The position numbers and the translations under genes are program-made. Of a DNA stretch of 64,000 bases, positions 14,842 through 25,942 are shown in pieces. Location of the stretch: the NCBI RefSeq assembly GCF_015291625.1, contig NZ_CP030047.1, forward strand, positions 6,138,001 through 6,202,000. Direction: 5' to 3'. This DNA is from Bradyrhizobium sp. CCBAU 53421 (lineage in GTDB: Bacteria; Pseudomonadota; Alphaproteobacteria; Rhizobiales; Xanthobacteraceae). The notes under the pieces are model-generated. The model had not been told where the DNA came from. It made no database searches and saw only the letters and a program-made list of their open reading frames with translations. The stretch's first letter is position 1, and each line of letters opens with the position of its first letter.

Positions 14842-14872
14842 TGATCCGCCACTCTGTCAGTGGCTGATCATC
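14840..14872. terminator. bidirectional hairpin across the stop codons of convergent genes
   Basis: GATGATC (14840-14846) and CCACT (14849-14853) pair with AGTGG (14859-14863) and GATCATC (14866-14872), with a 2x2 internal loop and a 5-nt apical loop. The structure includes the last stop bases of the ATPase gene and the stop codon of fmdB, a compact shared terminator. Confidence 0.6.
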
Positions 14873-15207
14873 CAGGGACGCGCGGTCGGAAAACCCTTCG
14901 CGCCGCTCTTGGTCTTGGTCATCAGTCGCGCCGGCTTCTTCTTTCCCGAGGAAGAGCAGCAGCCGCAGCCCGGGCCATGCGCAGCCTTGTACTGGTCGAG
15001 CGTCTTCGGCGCGTGCCGGCTCTGCTCGTTGGTGGCATGCGCCTTGCGCTTGTCCGAGGGCATGCAGAAGAACGCCGGTGCGGTCAGGATCACGCGCGGC
15101 GACGTCGTCTCGCATTGTGGGCAGTCCTGCGGCAGGTCGCATTCCGCCATCGGCCGCATGTCGGTGAACGGGCCGCAGTCGTTGCAGAGATATTCGTAGA
15201 TCGGCAT
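14857..15207 (-). CDS. fmdB: FmdB-family zinc-ribbon protein
   Basis: 116 residues. The N-terminal FmdB zinc ribbon (MPIYEYLCNDCGPF) has C8/C11 and C29/C32 as metal ligands. The C-terminal half is basic and has a second cysteine patch, GCGCC (residues 80-84), in a longer tail than in minimal FmdB proteins. FmdB was named as a putative regulator of formamidase in Methylophilus; its biochemical role is not established. Here it is the last gene of the urt-fmdA operon, 100 bp beyond fmdA across a strong hairpin. Confidence 0.88.
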   Translation of the reverse strand: MPIYEYLCNDCGPFTDMRPMAECDLPQDCPQCETTSPRVILTAPAFFCMPSDKRKAHATNEQSRHAPKTLDQYKAAHGPGCGCCSSSGKKKPARLMTKTKSGAKGFPTARPWMISH

Positions 15208-15307: not shown

Positions 15308-16537
15308 TCACTTGTCGGGCGAGATCGGCATCTGCACGTCGCCCTTGATGTGCTTGATCGGTCCCGCCGACGACGGCATCACGTCGAAGTCGAATATCTC
15401 CGTCGGCAGCCACAGCGTGGCGCAGGCGTTGGGCACGTCGACGACGCCGGAGATATGGCCCTGGCACGGCGCGGTGCCGAGGATCGAATAGGCCTGGGCG
15501 CCGGAGTAGCCGAACTTCTTCAGATACTCGATCGCGTTCAGGCAGGCCTGACGATAGGCGATGTGGACGTCGAGATAGTGCTGCTTGCCGGCCTCGTCGA
15601 CCGAGATGCCCTCAAAGATCAGATAGTCCTTGTAGTTCGGCGTGATCGGCGACGGCTTGAACACGGGATTCTTGATGCCGTATTTCGAGACGCCGTCCTT
15701 GATGACGTCGACCTTGATGTGCAGCCAGCCTGCCATTTCGATGGCGCCGCAGAAGGTGATCTCGCCGTCGCCCTGGCTGAAATGCAGGTCGCCCATCGAG
15801 AGCCCGCCGCCCGGCACATAGACCGGGAAATAGATCTTCGAGCCGCGCGACAGATCCTTGATGTCGCAATTGCCGCCATGCTCGCGCGGCGGCACGGTGC
15901 GCGCGCCCTCGAGGCCGATCTTGGCCTTGACGTCGCCCTTGGCCTGGCCGGCATGCGCGGTCGGCGCGAACGGCGGATTGGCGAGGCCCGGCACACGGGT
16001 CGGGTTGGTCGCGATCAGCTCGGCTTCGCGCGCGTTCCAGGCCGCCAGCATCTTGGCATCGGGCAGACAGCCGATCAGGCCGGGATGAATCAGGCCGGCG
16101 AAGTTGACGCCGGGGACGTGGCGCGACGAGGTGTAGAGGCCCTTGATATCCCAGATCGACTTCTGCGCCAGCGGAAAATGGTCGGTAAGGAAGCCGCCGC
16201 CATTCTGCTTGGAGAAGAAACCGTTGAAGCCCCACAGGCTCTCCTTCAAGGGACCGACGTCGAGCAGGTCGACGACGAGGAGATCGCCGGGCTCGGCGCC
16301 CTTGACACCGATCGGGCCGGACAGGAAGTGCACGATCGACAGATCGATGTCGCGCACGTCATCGGCGGAATCGTTGTTCTTGATGAAGCCGCCGGTCCAG
16401 TCGACGGTCTCGATGATGAAGTCGTCGCCCGGGCTGACCCACTCGACGATCGGAACCTCCGGATGCCAGCGGTTGTGGATCTTGTCGTTTTCATAGGCCG
16501 ACTTGCTGAGATCGACCTTGATCAGTGTATCTGGCAT
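15308..16537 (-). CDS. fmdA: formamidase (acetamidase/formamidase family)
   Basis: 409 residues, the length of FmdA enzymes. It hydrolyses formamide, and less well other short amides, to the acid and ammonia in the cytoplasm. The family is recognised from HNRWHPEVPIVEWVSPGDDF, GPIGVKGAEPGDLLVVDLLD, the glycine-rich GGFLTDHFP, and HVPGVNFAGLIHPGLIGCLP. The start at 16537 has GGGGAG seven bases upstream. It lies 25 bp behind urtE, so it probably shares a transcript with a urea/short-amide importer. Together they would feed amide nitrogen to the cell, most likely under nitrogen limitation (inference). Confidence 0.95.
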   Translation of the reverse strand: MPDTLIKVDLSKSAYENDKIHNRWHPEVPIVEWVSPGDDFIIETVDWTGGFIKNNDSADDVRDIDLSIVHFLSGPIGVKGAEPGDLLVVDLLDVGPLKESLWGFNGFFSKQNGGGFLTDHFPLAQKSIWDIKGLYTSSRHVPGVNFAGLIHPGLIGCLPDAKMLAAWNAREAELIATNPTRVPGLANPPFAPTAHAGQAKGDVKAKIGLEGARTVPPREHGGNCDIKDLSRGSKIYFPVYVPGGGLSMGDLHFSQGDGEITFCGAIEMAGWLHIKVDVIKDGVSKYGIKNPVFKPSPITPNYKDYLIFEGISVDEAGKQHYLDVHIAYRQACLNAIEYLKKFGYSGAQAYSILGTAPCQGHISGVVDVPNACATLWLPTEIFDFDVMPSSAGPIKHIKGDVQMPISPDK

Positions 16538-16562: not shown

Positions 16563-17252
16563 TTAGACGGACAAGTATTTGGAGATCTGCGCGGCATCGA
16601 CGCTGGCGCGCGGATCGTCGCGGACGATCTCGCCGTTCTCGATGACCAGCACGCGATCGGCGATATCGAGCGCGAAGCTCAAGACTTGCTCGGAGACGAC
16701 GATCGACAGCCCGCGCTCGTCGCGGATCCGCTTCAACGTGCGTGCCATGTCCTTGATGATCGACGGCTGGATGCCTTCGGTCGGCTCGTCGAGCAGCAGC
16801 ACCTTCGGCTTGGTCGCAAGCGCGCGGGCGATCGCGAGCTGTTGCTGCTGTCCGCCCGAAAGATTGCCGCCGCGGCGGCCTTTCATCTCGAGCAGAACCG
16901 GGAACAGCTCGTAGATATCGCCGGGCACCTCGGAACCGCCTGACACCACGAGCCCGGTCTCGATGTTCTCCTTCACCGTCATGGTGGAGAAGATCATGCG
17001 GCCCTGCGGCACGTAGGCGAGCCCCTTCGCCACCCGCTCGTAGCTCTTCATCGCGCCGAGCTCGGTGCCGTCCATGGTCACCTTGCCGCTCTTGGCCGGC
17101 AGGATGCCCATCAGGGACTTCATCAGCGTCGTCTTGCCCATCCCGTTGCGGCCCATGATCGCGACGATCTCGTTGGGTGCGACCGAGACGTTGAGGCCAT
17201 GCAGCACCTCGCTCTGGCCATAGGCGACGTGAAGATCATTGATTGCCAGCAT
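16563..17252 (-). CDS. urtE: urea/short-chain amide ABC transporter, ATP-binding protein UrtE
   Basis: 229 residues of the LivF-like branched-chain-type ATPases. Walker A GRNGMGKT is at 34-41, the signature LSGGQQQ at 131-137, and the Walker B segment is VLLLDEPTEGIQPSIIKDM. The phrase DEPTEGIQPSII favours UrtE over LivF. It lies between urtD and fmdA with short gaps (12 and 25 bp). Confidence 0.93.
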   Translation of the reverse strand: MLAINDLHVAYGQSEVLHGLNVSVAPNEIVAIMGRNGMGKTTLMKSLMGILPAKSGKVTMDGTELGAMKSYERVAKGLAYVPQGRMIFSTMTVKENIETGLVVSGGSEVPGDIYELFPVLLEMKGRRGGNLSGGQQQQLAIARALATKPKVLLLDEPTEGIQPSIIKDMARTLKRIRDERGLSIVVSEQVLSFALDIADRVLVIENGEIVRDDPRASVDAAQISKYLSV

Positions 17253-17264
17253 CGCTTCAAATCC

Positions 17265-18020
<756 letters not shown>

Positions 18021-18032
18021 GATGATCCCTCC

Positions 18033-19166
18033 TCACTCGGCCGGTGCGCCGTCGGCGACGAGCCCCGCCGATTTTGATCGTCGCGATGCCAGCAGGCGGT
18101 CGATGCGCGGCTGGATATGATCGGCCCAAATGCCGGAGAGCCCGTTCGGGAAAGCCAGCACGACCGCGATGAACAGCGCGCCGAGGCCGAACAGCCAGAG
18201 CTGCGGGAAGGATTCCGAGAGGCTGGTCTTGGCGAAATTGACCAGCAGCGCGCCCCAGACCGCGCCGAAGATCGACATCCGGCCGCCGACCGCGGTGTAG
18301 ATCACCATCTCGATCGACGGCACGATGCCGACGAAGGACGGCGACATGAAGCCGACCTCGAGCGTGAACATGGCGCCACCGATCGCGGCGAACACCGCCG
18401 CGGCACAGAACGCGAAGATCTTGAAGTTGGCGACGCTGTAACCGGAGAAGCGCACGCGATCCTCCTGCTCCCTCATCGCCACCAGGATGCGCCCGAGTTT
18501 TGTCAGCCGGATGAATTGCGCGGCGACGATGCATCCGAACAGCAGCACAACCTCGACGAAATACAGAATGAACTTGGCGTGATCGGTGCGGATGTCCCAG
18601 CCGTGCAGCGTGCGCAGGTCGGTAATGCCGTTGATGCCGCCGGTGTAGCCCTGCTGCCCCACGATCAGGATGGTGAGGATCGCAGCGATCGCCTGCGTGA
18701 TGATCGCAAAGTACACGCCGCCGACCCGGCGCTTGAACATCGCGGCGCCGATGATCAGCGCGAAGAACGCGGGAACCAGCAGGATCGCCAGCAGCGTGAC
18801 CGGGAAACTGTGAAACGGCTTCCAGAAGAAGGGCAGCGAGGTGAGCTGGTTCCAGTCCATGAAATCAGGGATGCCCGGCGTCGACTGGATCTTGGTGTTG
18901 GCAACCGACGATGCCTCGAGCTTGAGGTACATCGCCATGCAGTAGCCGCCGAGGCCGAAGAACACGCCCTGCCCCAGGCTGAGGATGCCGCCATAGCCCC
19001 AGCACAGCACGAGGCCGATGCCGACGAAGGCATAGGTCAGGTATTTGGCGACCAGGTTGAGGCGGAAGATATCCAGCGACAGCGGCAGGATGACAAGCAA
19101 CAGCACCGCGAGTGCAAGGAAGCCGAGCAGTTCGGAGCGATTGAAAAAGCGCGAGTTGATGATCAT
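18033..19166 (-). CDS. urtC: urea/short-chain amide ABC transporter permease UrtC
   Basis: 377 residues, LivM-like, with about ten membrane helices. The start at 19166 gives a normal N-terminus (MIINSRFFNRSELLGF). The same frame stays open upstream through urtB, which could be misread as a UrtB-UrtC fusion. The conserved LCWGYGGILSLGQGVFFGLGGY and the coupling segment RILVAMREQEDRVRFSGYSV are present. Confidence 0.93.
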   Translation of the reverse strand: MIINSRFFNRSELLGFLALAVLLLVILPLSLDIFRLNLVAKYLTYAFVGIGLVLCWGYGGILSLGQGVFFGLGGYCMAMYLKLEASSVANTKIQSTPGIPDFMDWNQLTSLPFFWKPFHSFPVTLLAILLVPAFFALIIGAAMFKRRVGGVYFAIITQAIAAILTILIVGQQGYTGGINGITDLRTLHGWDIRTDHAKFILYFVEVVLLFGCIVAAQFIRLTKLGRILVAMREQEDRVRFSGYSVANFKIFAFCAAAVFAAIGGAMFTLEVGFMSPSFVGIVPSIEMVIYTAVGGRMSIFGAVWGALLVNFAKTSLSESFPQLWLFGLGALFIAVVLAFPNGLSGIWADHIQPRIDRLLASRRSKSAGLVADGAPAE

Positions 19167-19183
19167 GACCAGCCTGCTTGTTC

Positions 19184-20110
19184 TTATTTGCGGACCTTGA
19201 GCGCGAACAGCCCCTGCGGACGCACCATCAGGATCGCGACGATCGTGAGCAGCGTGATCACCTTGGCCATCGATCCCGACAGGAAGAACTCCAGCGTCGA
19301 CTGGGTCTGCGAGATCGAGAACGCGGAGGCGATGGTGCCGAACAGCGAAGCTGCGCCGCCGAACACGACGACCAGGAAGGTGTCGACGATGTAGAGCTGG
19401 CCGGCGGTCGGCCCGGTCGAGCCGATCATGGTGAAGGCCGAGCCTGCAATGCCGGCGATGCCGCAGCCGAGCCCGAAGGTGTAGCGATCGACCTTCTCGG
19501 TGTTGATGCCGACGGCGCCCGCCATCACGCGGTTCTGCACCACCGCGCGCACCTGCTTGCCCCAGTTCGACCAGAACAGGATATAGAACACGACGATCGT
19601 GATCAGGATGGTCAGCCCCATCACGAACATGCCGTTGATCGGAATCTGGATCGAATCGGTCGCCTGCCAGGAGCCCATCATCCATTCCGGCAATTCCACG
19701 CCGACCTCGCGCGCGCCGAAGATCGAGCGATAGGCCTGCTGCAGAATCAGGCTGAGGCCCCAGGTCGCCAGCAGCGTATCGAGCGGACGCTTGTAGAGAT
19801 GACGGATCAGCGCCCATTCGACCAGCATGCCGAGCGCGCCGGAGGCGATGAACGCCAGGATCATCGCAATGAAGAAGTAGCCGGGAAACAGCCAGGGCGC
19901 GACGTGCTGCACGGCGTTCGACGTCATCCAGGTGACGTAAGCGCCGAGGATCATGAACTCGCCATGCGCCATGTTGATGACGCCCATCTGGCCGAAGATG
20001 ATGGCAAGCCCGAGCGCCATCAGCACGTAGACGGAGAACAGGATGAGCCCGGCAAATCCCTGCATCGCAAGGATGGCGCCGAGATCGCTGATCGAATAGT
20101 CGCCGAACAT
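19184..20110 (-). CDS. urtB: urea/short-chain amide ABC transporter permease UrtB
   Basis: 308 residues, LivH-like, with about eight membrane helices (GLAIIFGQMGVINMAHGEFMILGAY is the family core). The ATG at 20110 is chosen because GGAGG lies five bases upstream; an in-frame ATG at 20134 is weaker. It follows urtA after 116 bp, a gap often seen behind abundant binding-protein genes. Confidence 0.92.
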   Translation of the reverse strand: MFGDYSISDLGAILAMQGFAGLILFSVYVLMALGLAIIFGQMGVINMAHGEFMILGAYVTWMTSNAVQHVAPWLFPGYFFIAMILAFIASGALGMLVEWALIRHLYKRPLDTLLATWGLSLILQQAYRSIFGAREVGVELPEWMMGSWQATDSIQIPINGMFVMGLTILITIVVFYILFWSNWGKQVRAVVQNRVMAGAVGINTEKVDRYTFGLGCGIAGIAGSAFTMIGSTGPTAGQLYIVDTFLVVVFGGAASLFGTIASAFSISQTQSTLEFFLSGSMAKVITLLTIVAILMVRPQGLFALKVRK

Positions 20111-20226
20111 GATGTCCTCCAGTCCAAGGGGCACGCGCCGCGCGCAGCGGCGCCCGATCGGCGGCGTGGGCGGTGACGTCCACGCCGCGATGCGTTGAAG
20201 TGAGGTTGCGCCTTACGCGCTCAATC

Positions 20227-21489
20227 TCACTGGTAACCCTTGGGGAACGGATCCGGCTCGACGAGATCGGCGGTCTCGTAGATCAGTTCATACTGGCCAT
20301 CGGCCTTGGCGCGACCGACGCGGGTCTTCGACCAGAGGTGATGGTTCTCGTGGATCCGGACGTAACCTTCCGGCGCGCCCTTGAACTCGACGCCGGGAGA
20401 CGCCGCAGCGATCTTGTCGATGTCGAAGCTCTGCGCCTTCTCCACCGTCAGCTTCCACAGCCACGGGCCGAGATACGCGGCCTGCGTGACGTCGCCGATC
20501 ACGGTCTTCTCGCCCCACATCTTCTTGAACGCGGGCACGAAGGCCTTGTTGTTCGGATTGTCGAGCGACTGGAAGTACTTCATGCAGGCATAGGCTCCCG
20601 CGATGTTCTCGCCGCCGATGCCGTCGATCTCGTCCTCGGTGACCGAGATCGTCAGCAGCGTCTGCTTCGACAGATCGATGCCCGCCGCCTTGAGCTGCTT
20701 GTAGAACGCGACGTTGGAGCCGCCGACGATGATCGCGTAGATCACGTCCGGCTTGGTCAGCTTGATCTTGTTGATCACCGAATTGAACTGGGTCGAGCCG
20801 AGCGGGAAGTATTCCTCGCCGACCACCTTGCAGCCCTGCAGATGGTTCTCGATGTGCTTGCGCGCGATCTTGTTCGAGGTGCGCGGCCAGATGTAGTCCG
20901 AGCCGAGCAGATAGAAGCTCTTGGCGCCCTTGGTCTTGTTGACCCAGTCGAGGCCGGCGATGATCTGCTGCGTCGCCTCCTGCCCGGTGTAGATCACGTT
21001 CTTGGACTGCTCGAGACCCTCATAGAAGGTCGGGTAGTACAGCATGCCGTTGTACTGCTCGAACACCGGCAGCACCGCCTTGCGCGAGGCCGAGGTCCAG
21101 CAGCCCATCACGGCGGCGCATTTGTCGTTGACCAGGAGCTTCTTGGCCTTTTCCGCGAAGGTCGGCCAGTCACTCGCGCCGTCTTCCTGGATGAACTTGA
21201 TCTTGCGGCCGAGCACGCCGCCGGCGGCGTTGATCTGCTCGATCGCGAGCTTCTCGGCCTCGACCGACCCGGTCTCGGAGATCGCCATGGTGCCGGTCAC
21301 GGAGTGCAGGATGCCGACCGTGACTTCGCTATCGGTGACTGCAAGACCGGTGGTGTTGACCGCGGAGGTTGCAGGAACGTCGGCGAATGCGGGACGGCCC
21401 AGCATCGAAACGGCCGGCAAAGCAGCCATTCCCATCAAGAGCTTGCGCCGGAGCGGAGACTTCAGGCCTGGTTTTGTTTCGTCTGACAT
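20227..21489 (-). CDS. urtA: urea/short-chain amide ABC transporter solute-binding protein
   Basis: 420 residues. The N-terminus has a twin-arginine-like start (SPLRRKLLMGMAALP) and cleavage near AFA at residue 36, so export by the Tat pathway is possible. The mature chain VTVGILHSVTGTMAISETGS with GCWTSASRKAVLPVFE and YPTFYEGLEQSKNVIYTGQE is characteristic of UrtA/FmdD-type urea and short-amide binders. The start at 21489 follows GGGGTG. The open frame upstream of it has no such features. It is the first gene of urtABCDE-fmdA-fmdB and diverges from the transporter-like sensor kinase. Confidence 0.94.
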   Translation of the reverse strand: MSDETKPGLKSPLRRKLLMGMAALPAVSMLGRPAFADVPATSAVNTTGLAVTDSEVTVGILHSVTGTMAISETGSVEAEKLAIEQINAAGGVLGRKIKFIQEDGASDWPTFAEKAKKLLVNDKCAAVMGCWTSASRKAVLPVFEQYNGMLYYPTFYEGLEQSKNVIYTGQEATQQIIAGLDWVNKTKGAKSFYLLGSDYIWPRTSNKIARKHIENHLQGCKVVGEEYFPLGSTQFNSVINKIKLTKPDVIYAIIVGGSNVAFYKQLKAAGIDLSKQTLLTISVTEDEIDGIGGENIAGAYACMKYFQSLDNPNNKAFVPAFKKMWGEKTVIGDVTQAAYLGPWLWKLTVEKAQSFDIDKIAAASPGVEFKGAPEGYVRIHENHHLWSKTRVGRAKADGQYELIYETADLVEPDPFPKGYQ

Positions 21490-21557: not shown

Positions 21558-21575
21558 ATACGTGAGATCGCGTAT
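21558..21575. promoter_or_regulatory. inverted repeat ATACG-N8-CGTAT in the urtA/sensor-kinase spacer
   Basis: Within the divergent spacer, ATACG (21558-21562) and CGTAT (21571-21575) form an inverted repeat with an 8-bp gap, flanked by TTTTG (21541) and CAAAA (ending at 21589). It is a candidate binding site, possibly for the LuxR-type response regulator encoded nearby. The arms are short, so this is weak evidence. Confidence 0.3.
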
Positions 21576-21605
21576 ACTGCACCGCAAAATAGCGACGTAG
21601 GTTTT

Positions 21606-21620
21606 TGGTACGGGATTTGC
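21606..21620 (+). promoter_or_regulatory. sigma-54-like promoter (-24/-12)
   Basis: TGGTACGGGATTTGC matches the sigma-54 consensus TGGCAC-N5-TTGC with one substitution and has the obligatory GG-N10-GC spacing. It would start transcription near 21632, just ahead of the sensor-kinase ribosome binding site at 21644. RpoN/NtrC control would fit a nitrogen-source sensor. Confidence 0.5.
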
Positions 21621-21657
21621 CCGCGATCAGCGCATCGTGGACCAGGAGTTCAAACGA

Positions 21658-24600
21658 GTGGCAGGGCGGCAGCGGATAGACCGCGTCAGGCGCCAATACA
21701 ATCAATGGGTCGCCAACCAGACGCTGGAAGACTACGCGCTGCGCTTCACCGCCAAAAGCGCGCGGCGCTGGTCCGCCGCCCGTGTCGCCAACACCGCGCT
21801 CGGCGCGATCTCCTTCCTGGCGCTGGAGGCGATCGGCGGCACCATCACGCTGAACTACGGCGCGATGAACGCCTCGGCCGCGATCCTGGTCGTCAGCGTC
21901 ATCATCTTCCTCTGCGGCCTGCCGATCGCCTACCACGCCGCGAAAAGCGGCATCGACATCGACCTGCTGACCCGGGGGGCCGGCTTCGGCTATATCGGCT
22001 CGACCATCACATCACTGATCTACGCCTCCTTCACCTTCATCTTCTTCGCGATCGAGGCCGTGATCCTGGCCAGCGCGCTCGACATGTGCTTCGGCATCCC
22101 GCGACCGATCGGCTATCTGATCAGCGCGGTCGTGATCATTCCACTCGTCGTCTACGGCATCACGCTGATTAGCCGCTTCCAGCTCTGGACCCAGCCGCTG
22201 TGGGTGGTCCTCCACATCATGCCGTTCGCGGCGATCGCCTGGGCCAATCCGCATTCGTTTACCGAGTGGCGCAAGTTCGCCGGCGAGCATGGCGATCCCG
22301 CAGGGAATCTCGACCTCCTGCTGTTCGGCACGGCGGCCTCGGTCGTGTTCGCGCTGGTGGCGCAGATCGGCGAGCAGGTCGACTTCCTGCGCTTCCTGCC
22401 GCGCGACCGCCGCACCTCGCGAAAGGCCTGGTGGATCGCGTTGCTCAGCGCCGGTCCGGGCTGGATCGTGCTCGGCGCGCTCAAGCTGCTGGCCGGCTCG
22501 TTCCTGGCCTTCTTCGCGCTCAGCCATGGCGTCTCGGCCGAGCACGCGGCGGAGCCGGCGAACATGTATCTCGAGGCGTTCCGCTACGTGCTGTCGCAGC
22601 CGGATCTCGCAATGGCGCTGACCGGGACGTTCGTGATCCTGTCGCAGGTCAAGATCAACGTCACCAATGCCTATGCCGGCTCGATCGCATGGTCGAACTT
22701 CTTCTCCCGCCTCACCCATTCGCATCCCGGCCGCGTGGTGTGGCTGGTGTTCAACGTCGTCGTCGCGCTGCTGCTGATGGAGATCGGCGTCTATAAGGCA
22801 CTGGAGCAGACGCTGGCGCTCTACTCGAATGTCGCTATCGCCTGGGTCGGCGCGCTGGTCGCCGATCTCGTCATCAACAAGCCGCTCGGCCTGCGGCCCC
22901 AGCACATCGAATTCAAGCGCGCCCACCTCTGCGACATCAATCCGGTCGGCGTCGGCGCGATGACGATCGCAACCGTGGTCTCGATCAGCGCGTTCTACGG
23001 CCTGTTCGGTCCGACCGCGAAGGCGCTGTCCGCCTTCGTCGCACTTGCGGTCGCGTTCATCACGGCTCCCCTGATTGCCTGGGCGACCGACGGCAAGTAT
23101 TACATCGCGCGCAAACCGAAGCGGAGCTGGCAGAACATCGAATCGATCCAGTGCTGCATCTGCGAGCATGCGTTCGAGCCCGAGGACATGGCGGCCTGCC
23201 CCGCTTATGCCGGCCCGATCTGCTCATTGTGCTGCTCGCTCGACGCCCGCTGCCACGATCTCTGCAAGCCGCATGGGCGGATCGGCGCGCAAGTCGCGGA
23301 TGCACTGGGCAAGGTGATGCCGCAGCCGATCTACGCCCGCATCAACTCGCAGCTCGGCCATTACCTCGGCGTGTTCGCGGTCTCGGCCGGTCTCGTGGCG
23401 CTGGTGCTCGGCCTGATCTATCTGCAGACCACCGCGGCTGTGCATGCCAATGACCTATTGGCCGACGTGCTGTGGAAGGTGTTCTTTGCGCTGACCCTGA
23501 TCATCGGCGTCGTCGCCTGGCTGTTCGTGCTGGCGCAACAGAGCCGCCGCGCCGCGGAGGACGAAACACGCCGGCAGACCACGCTGCTGATCCAGGAGAT
23601 CGACGCCCACAAACGCACCGACGCCGAGCTGCAGCGCGCCAAGGAAGTCGCCGAGTCAGCCAATCTCGCCAAGAGCCGCTATGTCGTCGGCCTCAGCCAC
23701 GAGCTCCGCTCGCCGCTGAATGCGATCTCCGGCTACGCGCAGCTATTGGAGCAGGACGACAGTCTCCATATACGGCCGCGCGAGCAGGTCCGCGTGGTCC
23801 GCCGCAGTGCCGATCATTTGTCCGGACTGATCGATGGCATTCTCGATATCTCCAAGATCGAGGCCGGCCGGCTCTATCTGTCGCGCGACGAGGTGCGGTT
23901 GAACGATTTCCTCGAGCAGCTGGTCGGCATGTTCCGCCTGCAAGCCGCGGCGAAGGGCATCGACTTCGTGTTCAGGCGGCCGGCGGTGTTGCCCGTCGTG
24001 GTCTATGCCGACGAGAAGCGGCTGCGGCAGATCCTGATCAACCTGCTCTCGAACGCGATCAAGTTCACGCAGACGGGCAACGTCCAGTTCATCGTGCATT
24101 ACCGCAGCCCGGTCGCCGAGTTTGAGGTGATCGATACCGGGCCGGGCATCCAGCCCGACGACCTCGAGCGGATCTTCGCGCCCTTCGAGCGCGGTGCGCT
24201 CGGCGTCACCCAGCCGCAGACCGGCACCGGGCTCGGCCTCACCATCAGCCGCCTGCTCGCGGGTGTGATGGGCGGCGACATCAAGGTCCTGAGCACGGTC
24301 GGCACCGGCAGCACGTTCCGCGTCAAGCTGCTGCTGTCCGAGGTCACCAATCCGCGCCGCGACGCGCCGGTCGACGCTCCCGTGTACGGCTATCACGGCC
24401 CTCGCAAGACTATCCTGATCACCGACGATGACCCGACCCACCGCGACCTCCTGCGTGAGATTCTGGCGCCGCTCGGCTTCATCCTGCTCAGCGCACCGGA
24501 CGGACCGGGCTGCCTCGCCCTCGCGCAGCATTGCCGGCCGGACATGTTCCTGCTCGATATCTCGATGGCAGGCATGGACGGCTGGACGGTCGCCGAAACC

Positions 24601-25026
24601 CTGCGCTCCGAAGGCCATCACCAGGCGCGAATCCTGATGATCTCTGCGAGCGCATTGGAAGCTCACGGCGCGCCGCTGGCGCAACCGTTCCACGACGGCT
24701 ATTTGATGAAGCCGATCGACATTCCGCGGCTGCTCGAGACCATCCGGCAGCTGCTCAAGATCGAGTGGCAGTATGAGGTCGAGCAAACTCCGGCTCCGCA
24801 GTGGAAACCTGACACCGGCTCACGCCCGCCGGTGAAACATGTCGAGGAGCTGATCAGCCTCGGCCAGCTCGGCTATATCAGGGCGATCCAGCTCAAGCTC
24901 GACGAGATCGGCAACGAGCATCCCGAACATGCCGATTTCGTCGGCCAGATGCGCACTCTGATCGACCGGTTCGATCTCGATCAATATATGGCGACGTTGA
25001 AGACATTGCACAGCTATGACCATTGA
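21658..25026 (+). CDS. hybrid sensor histidine kinase with NCS1 transporter-like sensor domain
   Basis: 1122 residues from a GTG at 21658 with GGAG ten bases upstream. A GTG at 21637 would add seven residues but has no ribosome binding site. Residues about 20-475 form a 12-helix NCS1 (cytosine/purine/allantoin permease) domain, with TLEDYALRFT at its start as in true NCS1 transporters. A cysteine-rich segment (about 499-536, CCICE...ACPAY...CSLCCSLDARCHDLC) follows and may bind a metal. Then come one or two helices, a coiled-coil-like linker, a HisKA domain (LSHELRSPLN, His about 681), a HATPase domain (N box NLLSNAIKFT; DTGPGI; GTGLGLTISR), a receiver domain (ITDDDP; phospho-acceptor in FLLDISMAGMDGW) and a C-terminal helical extension. 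It resembles the CbrA idea of a kinase fused to a transporter. It likely senses or imports an N-containing solute and signals to the overlapping response regulator. Confidence 0.9.
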   Translation: MAGRQRIDRVRRQYNQWVANQTLEDYALRFTAKSARRWSAARVANTALGAISFLALEAIGGTITLNYGAMNASAAILVVSVIIFLCGLPIAYHAAKSGIDIDLLTRGAGFGYIGSTITSLIYASFTFIFFAIEAVILASALDMCFGIPRPIGYLISAVVIIPLVVYGITLISRFQLWTQPLWVVLHIMPFAAIAWANPHSFTEWRKFAGEHGDPAGNLDLLLFGTAASVVFALVAQIGEQVDFLRFLPRDRRTSRKAWWIALLSAGPGWIVLGALKLLAGSFLAFFALSHGVSAEHAAEPANMYLEAFRYVLSQPDLAMALTGTFVILSQVKINVTNAYAGSIAWSNFFSRLTHSHPGRVVWLVFNVVVALLLMEIGVYKALEQTLALYSNVAIAWVGALVADLVINKPLGLRPQHIEFKRAHLCDINPVGVGAMTIATVVSISAFYGLFGPTAKALSAFVALAVAFITAPLIAWATDGKYYIARKPKRSWQNIESIQCCICEHAFEPEDMAACPAYAGPICSLCCSLDARCHDLCKPHGRIGAQVADALGKVMPQPIYARINSQLGHYLGVFAVSAGLVALVLGLIYLQTTAAVHANDLLADVLWKVFFALTLIIGVVAWLFVLAQQSRRAAEDETRRQTTLLIQEIDAHKRTDAELQRAKEVAESANLAKSRYVVGLSHELRSPLNAISGYAQLLEQDDSLHIRPREQVRVVRRSADHLSGLIDGILDISKIEAGRLYLSRDEVRLNDFLEQLVGMFRLQAAAKGIDFVFRRPAVLPVVVYADEKRLRQILINLLSNAIKFTQTGNVQFIVHYRSPVAEFEVIDTGPGIQPDDLERIFAPFERGALGVTQPQTGTGLGLTISRLLAGVMGGDIKVLSTVGTGSTFRVKLLLSEVTNPRRDAPVDAPVYGYHGPRKTILITDDDPTHRDLLREILAPLGFILLSAPDGPGCLALAQHCRPDMFLLDISMAGMDGWTVAETLRSEGHHQARILMISASALEAHGAPLAQPFHDGYLMKPIDIPRLLETIRQLLKIEWQYEVEQTPAPQWKPDTGSRPPVKHVEELISLGQLGYIRAIQLKLDEIGNEHPEHADFVGQMRTLIDRFDLDQYMATLKTLHSYDH

Positions 25027-25942
25027 ACAGAGAAAGCGCGACGTAGCGCTCGTCGTCGACGACTCGCCGGAGACGTTGCGCCTCTTGACCGATGCGCTCG
25101 ACGGCGCCGGCATGACCGTGATGGTCGCGCTCGACGGCGCCTCCGCGATGCGCATCGTCGACCAGATCACCCCCGACATCGTGCTGCTCGACGCCGTGAT
25201 GCCCGGCATGGACGGGTTCGAGACCTGCAAGCGGCTGAAGCGCGATGCCGGGCTCGACGGCGTGCCGATCATCTTCATGACGGGGCTGGCCGAAACCGAG
25301 CACATCGTCCGTGGGCTGGAGGCCGGCGGCGTCGACTATGTCACGAAGCCGATCGTGGTCGAGGAGATGCTGGCGCGGATCCGGGTCCACCTCGCCAATG
25401 CGCGGATGACGCAGAGCGCCCGCGCCGCGCTCGACGTCTCCGGCCGCTATCTGCTCGCGGTCAACAGTGCGGGCGCGCTGCTATGGGCGACGCCGCAGGC
25501 ACAGCGACTGCTGTCCGATACGCTCGCCGACGCGGCCGATAATTTCGTGCTGCCGGAGCCGATGCCGCAATGGCTCGAGCAGGCGCAGAAGGGCAAGGCG
25601 GGACCGAAGACCGCGACGGTGGCGTCATTCCCCGGCAACGAGCAGCTTCGCCTGCAATTCATGGGCAAGCTCGGGCCCGACGAATTCCTGCTGCGGCTGG
25701 CCAAGGACACCAGCGCCGACATGCCGGCCGAGTTCTCCAGCGAGCTCGGCCTGACCACCCGCGAGGGCGAGGTGCTGTCCTGGCTCTCCAAGGGCAAGAC
25801 CAATCGCGACATCGCGCAGATCCTGGGCCTCAGCCCGCGCACCGTCGACAAGCATCTCGAGCAGATCTACGCCAAGCTCGGCGTCGAGAATCGCACCGCC
25901 GCCGCCGCGATCGCGGTCAACGCCAGGCACCGCAAGTCGTAG
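25016..25942 (+). CDS. response regulator, receiver plus LuxR-type helix-turn-helix
   Basis: 308 residues. The receiver domain at about 8-125 has the acidic pocket VVDDSP and phospho-acceptor Asp59 in VLLDAVMPGMDGF. A middle segment of about 100 residues, PAS-like in pattern (RYLLAVNSAGALLWAT), links to a LuxR/NarL-type DNA-binding domain at about 240-300 (LTTREGEVLSWLSKGKTNRDIAQILGLSPRTVDKHLEQIYAKL, split here for reading). The start overlaps the kinase gene by 11 bp, so the two are translationally coupled partners. Likely targets are the divergent urt-fmd operon and its own promoter. Confidence 0.92.
   Translation: MTIEQRKRDVALVVDDSPETLRLLTDALDGAGMTVMVALDGASAMRIVDQITPDIVLLDAVMPGMDGFETCKRLKRDAGLDGVPIIFMTGLAETEHIVRGLEAGGVDYVTKPIVVEEMLARIRVHLANARMTQSARAALDVSGRYLLAVNSAGALLWATPQAQRLLSDTLADAADNFVLPEPMPQWLEQAQKGKAGPKTATVASFPGNEQLRLQFMGKLGPDEFLLRLAKDTSADMPAEFSSELGLTTREGEVLSWLSKGKTNRDIAQILGLSPRTVDKHLEQIYAKLGVENRTAAAAIAVNARHRKS

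Follow-up and report, generated by a model that had tools for sequence, protein, structure and literature searches.

What does a histidine kinase sense, and which genes does it serve, when it begins with a transporter-like domain and lies back to back with an amide and urea import operon? This question is raised by the window analyzed here, a stretch of 64,000 nucleotides from Bradyrhizobium sp. CCBAU 53421. Urea and formamide are common sources of nitrogen, and both are known inducers of an fmd cluster that includes an importer and a porin: fmdCABDEF of Methylophilus methylotrophus encodes formamidase, a porin and a short-chain amide/urea importer, and is induced by formamide and urea (PMC10781810). 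The parts of that account drawn on here name a putative positive regulator and no sensor kinase. In Bradyrhizobium japonicum, a second urt cluster of five genes (blr0969-blr0973) adjoins the acetamidase/formamidase FmdA and was inferred in 2010 to carry an amide other than urea (PMC3098086); the excerpt used mentions neither kinase nor regulator. A LuxR-type two-component pair beside a second urtABCDE cluster has been listed in Ectopseudomonas guguanensis (PMC13296017).

Among the listed titles and abstracts of open-licence papers, there was no description of the function of the kinase family, its cysteine module or its operator, and titles and abstract beginnings yielded no urea- or amide-sensing two-component system. 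The matches listed in a search with the motif letters and urea were unrelated by title. A search for NCS1 with histidine kinase gave no fusion in titles, and one account merely cites a thesis.

Organization of the Locus

The annotated features of the window are as follows:

14857..15207, minus strand: fmdB-like small protein with an RPWMISH domain (NCBIfam)
15308..16537, minus strand: fmdA formamidase (NF045496, 750 bits)
16563..17252, minus strand: urtE ATPase (NCBIfam)
17265..18020, minus strand: urtD ATPase (NCBIfam)
18033..19190, minus strand: urtC permease (NCBIfam; start approximate, the longest reading frame extending to 20183)
19184..20134, minus strand: urtB permease (NCBIfam)
20227..21489, minus strand: urtA, urea/amide-binding protein (NCBIfam; 545 bits, cut-off 493)
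21558..21575, no strand: predicted palindromic operator ATACGTGAGATCGCGTAT, between the kinase gene and urtA (motif search)
21598..21603, plus strand: -10-like hexamer TAGGTT, spaced from the operator as is typical of the family
21606..21620, plus strand: sigma-54-like box TGGTACGGGATTTGC, conserved in loci of the same genus
21658..25026, plus strand: NCS1-like hybrid histidine kinase gene (start at 21658 preferred; the reading frame opens at 21637)
21736..23106, plus strand: NCS1/LeuT-fold domain, about residues 27-483 (fold comparison of the predicted structure)
23149..23265, plus strand: cysteine module, residues 498-536, with eight invariant cysteines, probably zinc-binding (alignments, structure model)
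23350..23535, plus strand: membrane hairpin (about residues 565-626, with an approximate end) running into a signalling helix (structure model)
23671..24747, plus strand: HisKA, HATPase_c and receiver domains (Pfam)
25016..25942, plus strand: response regulator, REC plus LuxR/GerE HTH (Pfam; 11-nt overlap with the kinase gene)

A sequence-only reading of this DNA had described a permease-like domain, a cysteine segment and HisKA, HATPase and receiver domains joined in one kinase, a response regulator gene overlapping it, and urtABCDE-fmdAB diverging from it. Pfam and fold comparison confirm the domains, the overlap amounts to 11 nt, and gene annotation bears out the divergent operon. The kinase belongs to the hybrid HisKA class, with an H-box SHELRSPLN and the phospho-acceptor aspartate of the receiver in LLDIS (Pfam and translation). 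Its partner is of the NarL/FixJ type, with REC and GerE/LuxR HTH matches of 96.3 and 67 bits in Pfam. Homologs carry JGI names of the type purine-cytosine permease-like kinase.

The Transporter-Like Domain

Pfam and PDB sequence searches with the N-terminal domain returned no match, and its identity had therefore to be sought by fold comparison. The predicted structure has the LeuT fold, with the NCS1 transporters CodB and Mhp1 as best structural matches. The SLC5-type carriers DUR3 (22.1) and CHT1 (21.9) scored well under the NCS1 chains (24.2-29.8), and an SLC5 identity was rejected. An NCS1-type permease domain had been proposed from the sequence; the fold upholds this, but the family profile does not, since PF02133 was matched by none of 23 kinase-family members at E<=10 in Pfam. 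A stand-alone PF02133 protein (P0123) aligns across the whole domain, and kinship to PF02133 is thus indirect. E57, E239, K332 and other residues are near-invariant in the family and mostly absent from four ordinary NCS1 proteins. Hence the domain shares the LeuT-type NCS1 fold of CodB and Mhp1 (PF02133), but differs from them in lying below Pfam detection, in being fused to a kinase and in having near-invariant residues of its own. NCS1 carriers with known substrates transport nucleobases or hydantoins, not urea.

Alignment columns 169, 231, 235 and others, where formamidase-type and urea-type kinases diverge most, were considered as specificity residues and rejected, because they follow clades.

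Some further transporter genes were seen in passing. Immediately left of the window (genome positions 6118001-6138000, L278), no more than about 41 kb from the kinase, lie a stand-alone NCS1 permease gene and genes for two further UrtA-like binding proteins below the curated cut-off. One contig (G011:C16) has two matches to the N-terminal domain, at positions 547628 and 910796, with equal score and identity; the pair is either a recent duplication or an assembly artefact.

The Cysteine Module and Hairpin

The nine-cysteine segment that had been placed at about residues 499-536 was found at residues 498-536, numbered from 21658. Eight of the cysteines are invariant in 23/23 and in 72/72 members, with the spacing CxxC-x11-C-x7-CxxCC-x5-C-x3-C. 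(The 72-member alignment, A6, was made after removal of 43 of 115 rows; L061 was left out of alignment A4.) The linker is cysteine-rich in all 72 aligned rows, as judged from the alignment and not from a separate comparison with a STAC profile. Modelled alone, the module reached a pLDDT of 71 and a pTM of 0.50, rising to a pLDDT of 85-88 over residues 11-40, and showed short strands and one helix. Many of its closest fold matches were RING, FYVE, PHD and LIM zinc modules, none of them significant, and Prok-RING_1 was weakly matched in 5/72. We infer a structural two-zinc module. In a larger model, the helices of the hairpin (residues 565-594 and from 599) are continuous with the signalling helix of the kinase.

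Distribution and Gene Company of the Family

Loci were drawn from a class sample, a set of relatives and a phylum sample. The kinase was matched in 29/385 genomes of the class sample, three of them weakly, and in 57/100 genomes of the relatives. In the phylum sample, the cysteine module occurs at 57 places in 52/398 genomes; 44 of these places were fetched, six lie in genomes fetched earlier and seven in same-genus genomes. All 44 fetched places also have the NCS1-like domain. By coordinates, FmdA lies about 7-8 kb from the module in six of the seven remaining same-genus genomes, while G574 is split over contigs.

The genes counted as company were formamidase and/or urt, urease, urea carboxylase/allophanate hydrolase and nickel transporter genes, and key annotations were verified against NCBIfam. 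They were found beside 79 of 85 kinase loci, the window included. Both urtA and fmdA of the window's type are present at 47 loci, urtA only at two and fmdA only at two. The company is urea-type at 28 (canonical urtA, ureA/ureC/ureG, urea carboxylase, allophanate hydrolase or NicO), with NicO the sole such gene beside the truncated kinase of L091. None of the genes sought was present at six loci, namely four complete locus windows (L080, L083 and L084, from a single genus, and L082) and two contig ends; the neighbours of L080 and L082 were scanned and included no urea genes. A second, named scan of the best 80 of 578 relatives, sharing some genomes with the first, found urea/amide genes at 73 loci in Pseudomonas, Bordetella, Marinobacter, Alcanivorax, Halomonas, Rhizobium and other genera. 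Of the seven loci where none was found, four are contig ends, while L251, L253 and L258 are complete windows lacking every urea gene sought; for Marinomonas L251 and Phormidium L258, ten neighbours were scanned and no urea gene was seen.

Across the 398 genomes, window-type FmdA (E<=1e-100, a threshold chosen for this analysis) occurs in 40, the cysteine module in 52 and both in 39 (Fisher p 1.4e-41; 27/28 when counted by genus), leaving 13 genomes with the kinase and no window-type formamidase. On a tree of 82 kinases, without the truncated L091, L096 and L179, the context changed between formamidase and urea about four times by parsimony; well-supported branches alone force two to three changes. 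In four of five two-copy genomes, one copy lies at fmd and the other at urease genes (L148/L149, L155/L156, L158/L159, L163/L164); in the fifth, G557, both copies are near fmdA.

The family is thus real, well conserved and wider than the sequence-only reading supposed, and its link to urea and amide genes is strong. Homologs unlinked to urt/fmd, which would have spoken against that reading, proved the exception, as the counts of 79/85 and 73/80 (best 80 of 578) indicate. Its proposal of a dedicated sensor for a nitrogen-containing solute that controls amide use stands as regards the linkage, to which the predicted operator described below adds a physical route, but not in its restriction to amides: many members lie at urease, urea ABC transporter or urea carboxylase genes.

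Some loci depart from the common arrangement. In the cyanobacterium Phormidium (L258, 9971-12937), the same NCS1-like domain and cysteine module precede a different kinase C-terminus; the gene adjoins protochlorophyllide reductase, and the partner regulator of the family was not found there. On a Marinomonas contig (L251, 5694-9489), a family member lies beside a molybdate ABC transporter and not urea genes. In Alcanivorax (L194, 3769-4809), an aliphatic amidase gene sits between urtE and fmdA, which has its own operator.

A Predicted Palindromic Operator

Footprinting of the gaps between kinase and divergent gene led us to predict an operator. From 129 loci, 31 near-copies were dropped, leaving 98 non-redundant regions, of which 61 contain the dyad TACG-N8-CGTA; 0.3 would be expected, and the best dyad in shuffles reached 14. 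The 18-bp family consensus is ATACGTCA-N2-TGACGTAT, refined in the matrix to ATACGTCA-(A/T)(A/T)-TGACGTAT. Above the 1% shuffle threshold of the matrix lie 94/98 training regions, and a matrix trained on formamidase-type regions alone found a site in 13/15 urea-type regions. Two urease-linked loci (L149, L169) had no matrix match in the kinase-urease gap. The window site scores 15.2, against a median of 23.8.

In 3.15 Mb of sequence (165 loci), 184 sites scored above 14, compared with five in block-shuffled loci, and 177 of them lie within 500 bp upstream of a kinase or urea/amide gene. Fifty-one fall outside the training regions: 44 at kinase or urea/amide genes (21 fmdA, ten of them non-redundant; 8 urtA2; 2 allophanate hydrolase; 1 urtA1; 12 kinase) and seven unassigned. 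Three of the seven precede porin genes, either beyond fmdB (L071, and L075 as judged by likeness to it) or at the head of the urt operon (L081), and one precedes a urtC-like permease gene (L229); those at L165, L248 and L249 have no gene assignment. At L276, a further site lies in front of a gene immediately upstream of fmdA whose 385-aa product has no Pfam match. In G150, urtA2 lies about 61 kb from the kinase and has a site scoring 18.2 at a distance of 97 bp upstream from the matched stretch. As controls, one genome each, the formamidase gene of kinase-free G577 and urtA2 of kinase-free G805 had no site.

At 34/165 loci, the 1 kb preceding the kinase gene had no site scoring above 14. Eight loci have the site at the target gene and not before the kinase (L076, L077, L081, L094, L141, L143, L147, L266). 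Others, such as urease-adjacent L152, L164, L178, L149 and L169, have no site above 14 at either, L149 having one of 13.1 before urtA2. The operator is kept before the kinase of L080, L083 and L084 despite no nearby urea genes, and urtA2 there has no site. No site was found at urtA2 of G359, G132 and G261, though the kinase operator is strong there, at urtA2 of G557 and of the window's genome, where it belongs to a separate urease/urtA2 cluster, at the second fmdA of G651, or at the second urtA1-fmdA cluster of G574, which is on another contig than the kinase, with its operator (18.3), and a urtA start. These genomes do have the kinase. The regulon thus appears to be local to particular clusters and does not take in every urea gene.

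In the window's genome, a pattern search found one exact site and one with a single mismatch (control: 0 forward, 2 reverse). The strict pattern matched 4/12 other genomes, only before the kinase; the 12 include G088, which has no kinase match. In G699, G679 and G817, urtA2 has a weaker variant only (12.6-13.2). Weaker variants of the form TACGCC...GGCGYA were seen upstream of urtA2 in L290, L291 and L292 and before ureA in L159 and L173. The pattern in urease-linked members suggests that regulator and site drifted together.

Promoters and Probable Nitrogen Control

On the kinase side, a TANNNT hexamer occurs at one fixed offset from the operator in 34/92 non-redundant sites (mean 1.23 per offset); towards urtA, the same offset is weaker (8/65). 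The predicted operator center would thus lie near -43.5 of the kinase promoter, a position commonly taken by activators that contact RNA polymerase, which makes positive autoregulation of the kinase operon likely. The sigma-54-like promoter proposed before the kinase also has the expected form: the predicted GG-N10-GC core is present with at most one mismatch in 26/31 same-genus loci, and in 1/24 others. In Bradyrhizobium, this box probably adds nitrogen control to the kinase gene.

Proposed Mechanism and Alternatives

Taken together, the evidence makes it probable that the locus encodes a urea/short-chain-amide two-component system, in which the transporter fold serves as receptor and the regulator acts from the palindrome on urtABCDE-fmdA and on its own operon. 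The evidence is strong for control of these genes, and sensing by the kinase is a good hypothesis. Judging from the gene company, the NCS1-like domain would bind urea or a small amide. In the window's genome, the separate urease/urtA2 cluster is without operator, which makes formamide or a close relative the most likely ligand here, rather than urea. Binding would cause a transporter-like rearrangement of the domain, and the signal would pass through the eight-cysteine module, presumably cytoplasmic and probably zinc-binding, and the membrane hairpin to the HisKA kinase. The LuxR-type regulator, once phosphorylated, would then bind the palindrome and presumably activate, rather than repress, the genes to either side of it, urtABCDE-fmdA and the kinase-regulator operon, its targets being import, porin and hydrolase genes.

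The domain might also transport urea or the amide, kinase activity then depending, as in CbrA, on flux and not on occupancy. The carrier fold is complete, and the SLC5 domain of CbrA transports histidine (PMC13022988); however, a dedicated ABC importer is encoded beside the kinase in most loci, and KsAmt5, another carrier-kinase, translocates its ligand poorly (PMC8534201), so we consider such a dual role possible but doubtful. The signal could instead be a nucleobase-like compound, ammonium or nitrogen status, with the urea and amide genes as mere targets. This reading draws on the nucleobase and hydantoin substrates of the NCS1 relatives. Ammonia, moreover, represses the Methylophilus fmd cluster (PMC10781810). 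The placement of paired copies at fmd and at urease genes in four of five two-copy genomes is nevertheless easier to explain by distinct, related ligands than by one general signal for nitrogen. In casual inspection of the loci, moreover, no recurrent set of nucleobase genes was noticed. We regard this reading as unlikely.

The invariance of eight cysteines in 72/72 members, and the NicO nickel transporters adjoining L081 and L091, could mean that the module itself is a nickel, zinc or redox sensor reporting metal supply for urease or formamidase. Yet it is equally invariant in formamidase-linked members with no nickel enzyme nearby, and the fold hints, though not significant, favor a structural zinc module; a metal sensor is quite improbable. 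That another conserved regulator binds the palindrome, the two-component system being a mere neighbor, seems very improbable indeed, as the operator stands before the kinase itself, follows target genes elsewhere in kinase-holding genomes, and is absent at the formamidase gene of G577 and urtA2 of G805, both kinase-free. Two loci (L140, L180) that lack both LuxR-type regulator and operator are neutral in this respect.

Returning to the two-component reading, its extension to the whole phylum seems to us evenly poised between right and wrong. In it, an NCS1 fold would have become the sensor of a phylum-wide family of urea/short-amide receptor kinases, coupled to the kinase by a two-zinc module. 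The family would supply the missing regulator of formamide/urea-inducible fmd-urt clusters and of urease clusters in many cases, would have switched repeatedly between urea and amides while retaining a single operator, and would have been rewired in one branch to another output. The analysis names candidates for the receptor, the regulator and the 18-bp operator, in a family found in roughly an eighth of the phylum genomes sampled (52/398), and its naturally paired paralogues are a way to learn why a transporter fold would answer to urea rather than formamide.

Relation to Known Systems

Carrier-fused kinases are already known (CbrA, CrbS, KsAmt5); the present kinase would add an NCS1-like variant at urea and amide genes. 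In the parts of the sources used, CbrA and its SLC5-STAC relatives (PMC13022988), including CrbS and RpuS, share with the present kinase an N-terminal LeuT-fold carrier, a linker, a histidine kinase and metabolic targets. They differ in having an SLC5 domain rather than an NCS1-like one and a STAC helical bundle rather than a cysteine module and hairpin; the urea and amide targets also set the present family apart. KsAmt5, an ammonium-transporter histidine kinase whose carrier domain acts as receptor (PMC8534201), likewise joins a carrier domain for a nitrogen compound to a kinase, but has the Amt fold and an ammonium ligand and comes from an anammox bacterium; the excerpt mentions no cysteine module. 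The ammonia-sensing pair GrtK/GrtR was rejected as a counterpart, no transporter domain being mentioned for it in the portion of the source used. Porin_O_P-type proteins are encoded close to the operator or first in the urt operon in L071 (182-1549), L081 (9336-10517) and L088 (10883-12052), and resemble the amide/urea porin of Methylophilus, as far as its account was drawn on.

Finally, in L140 (8459-11116) and L180 (8471-11155), the NCS1-like domain and cysteine module are attached to a non-hybrid kinase beside fmdA; the L140 locus further encodes a REC-HATPase protein together with an OmpR-type regulator. Neither urt genes nor the operator were found at these two loci, which represent a second wiring of the same sensor to another output. 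As they keep sensor and fmdA and not the operator, they suggest that the tie to amides belongs to the sensor part and not to the regulator.
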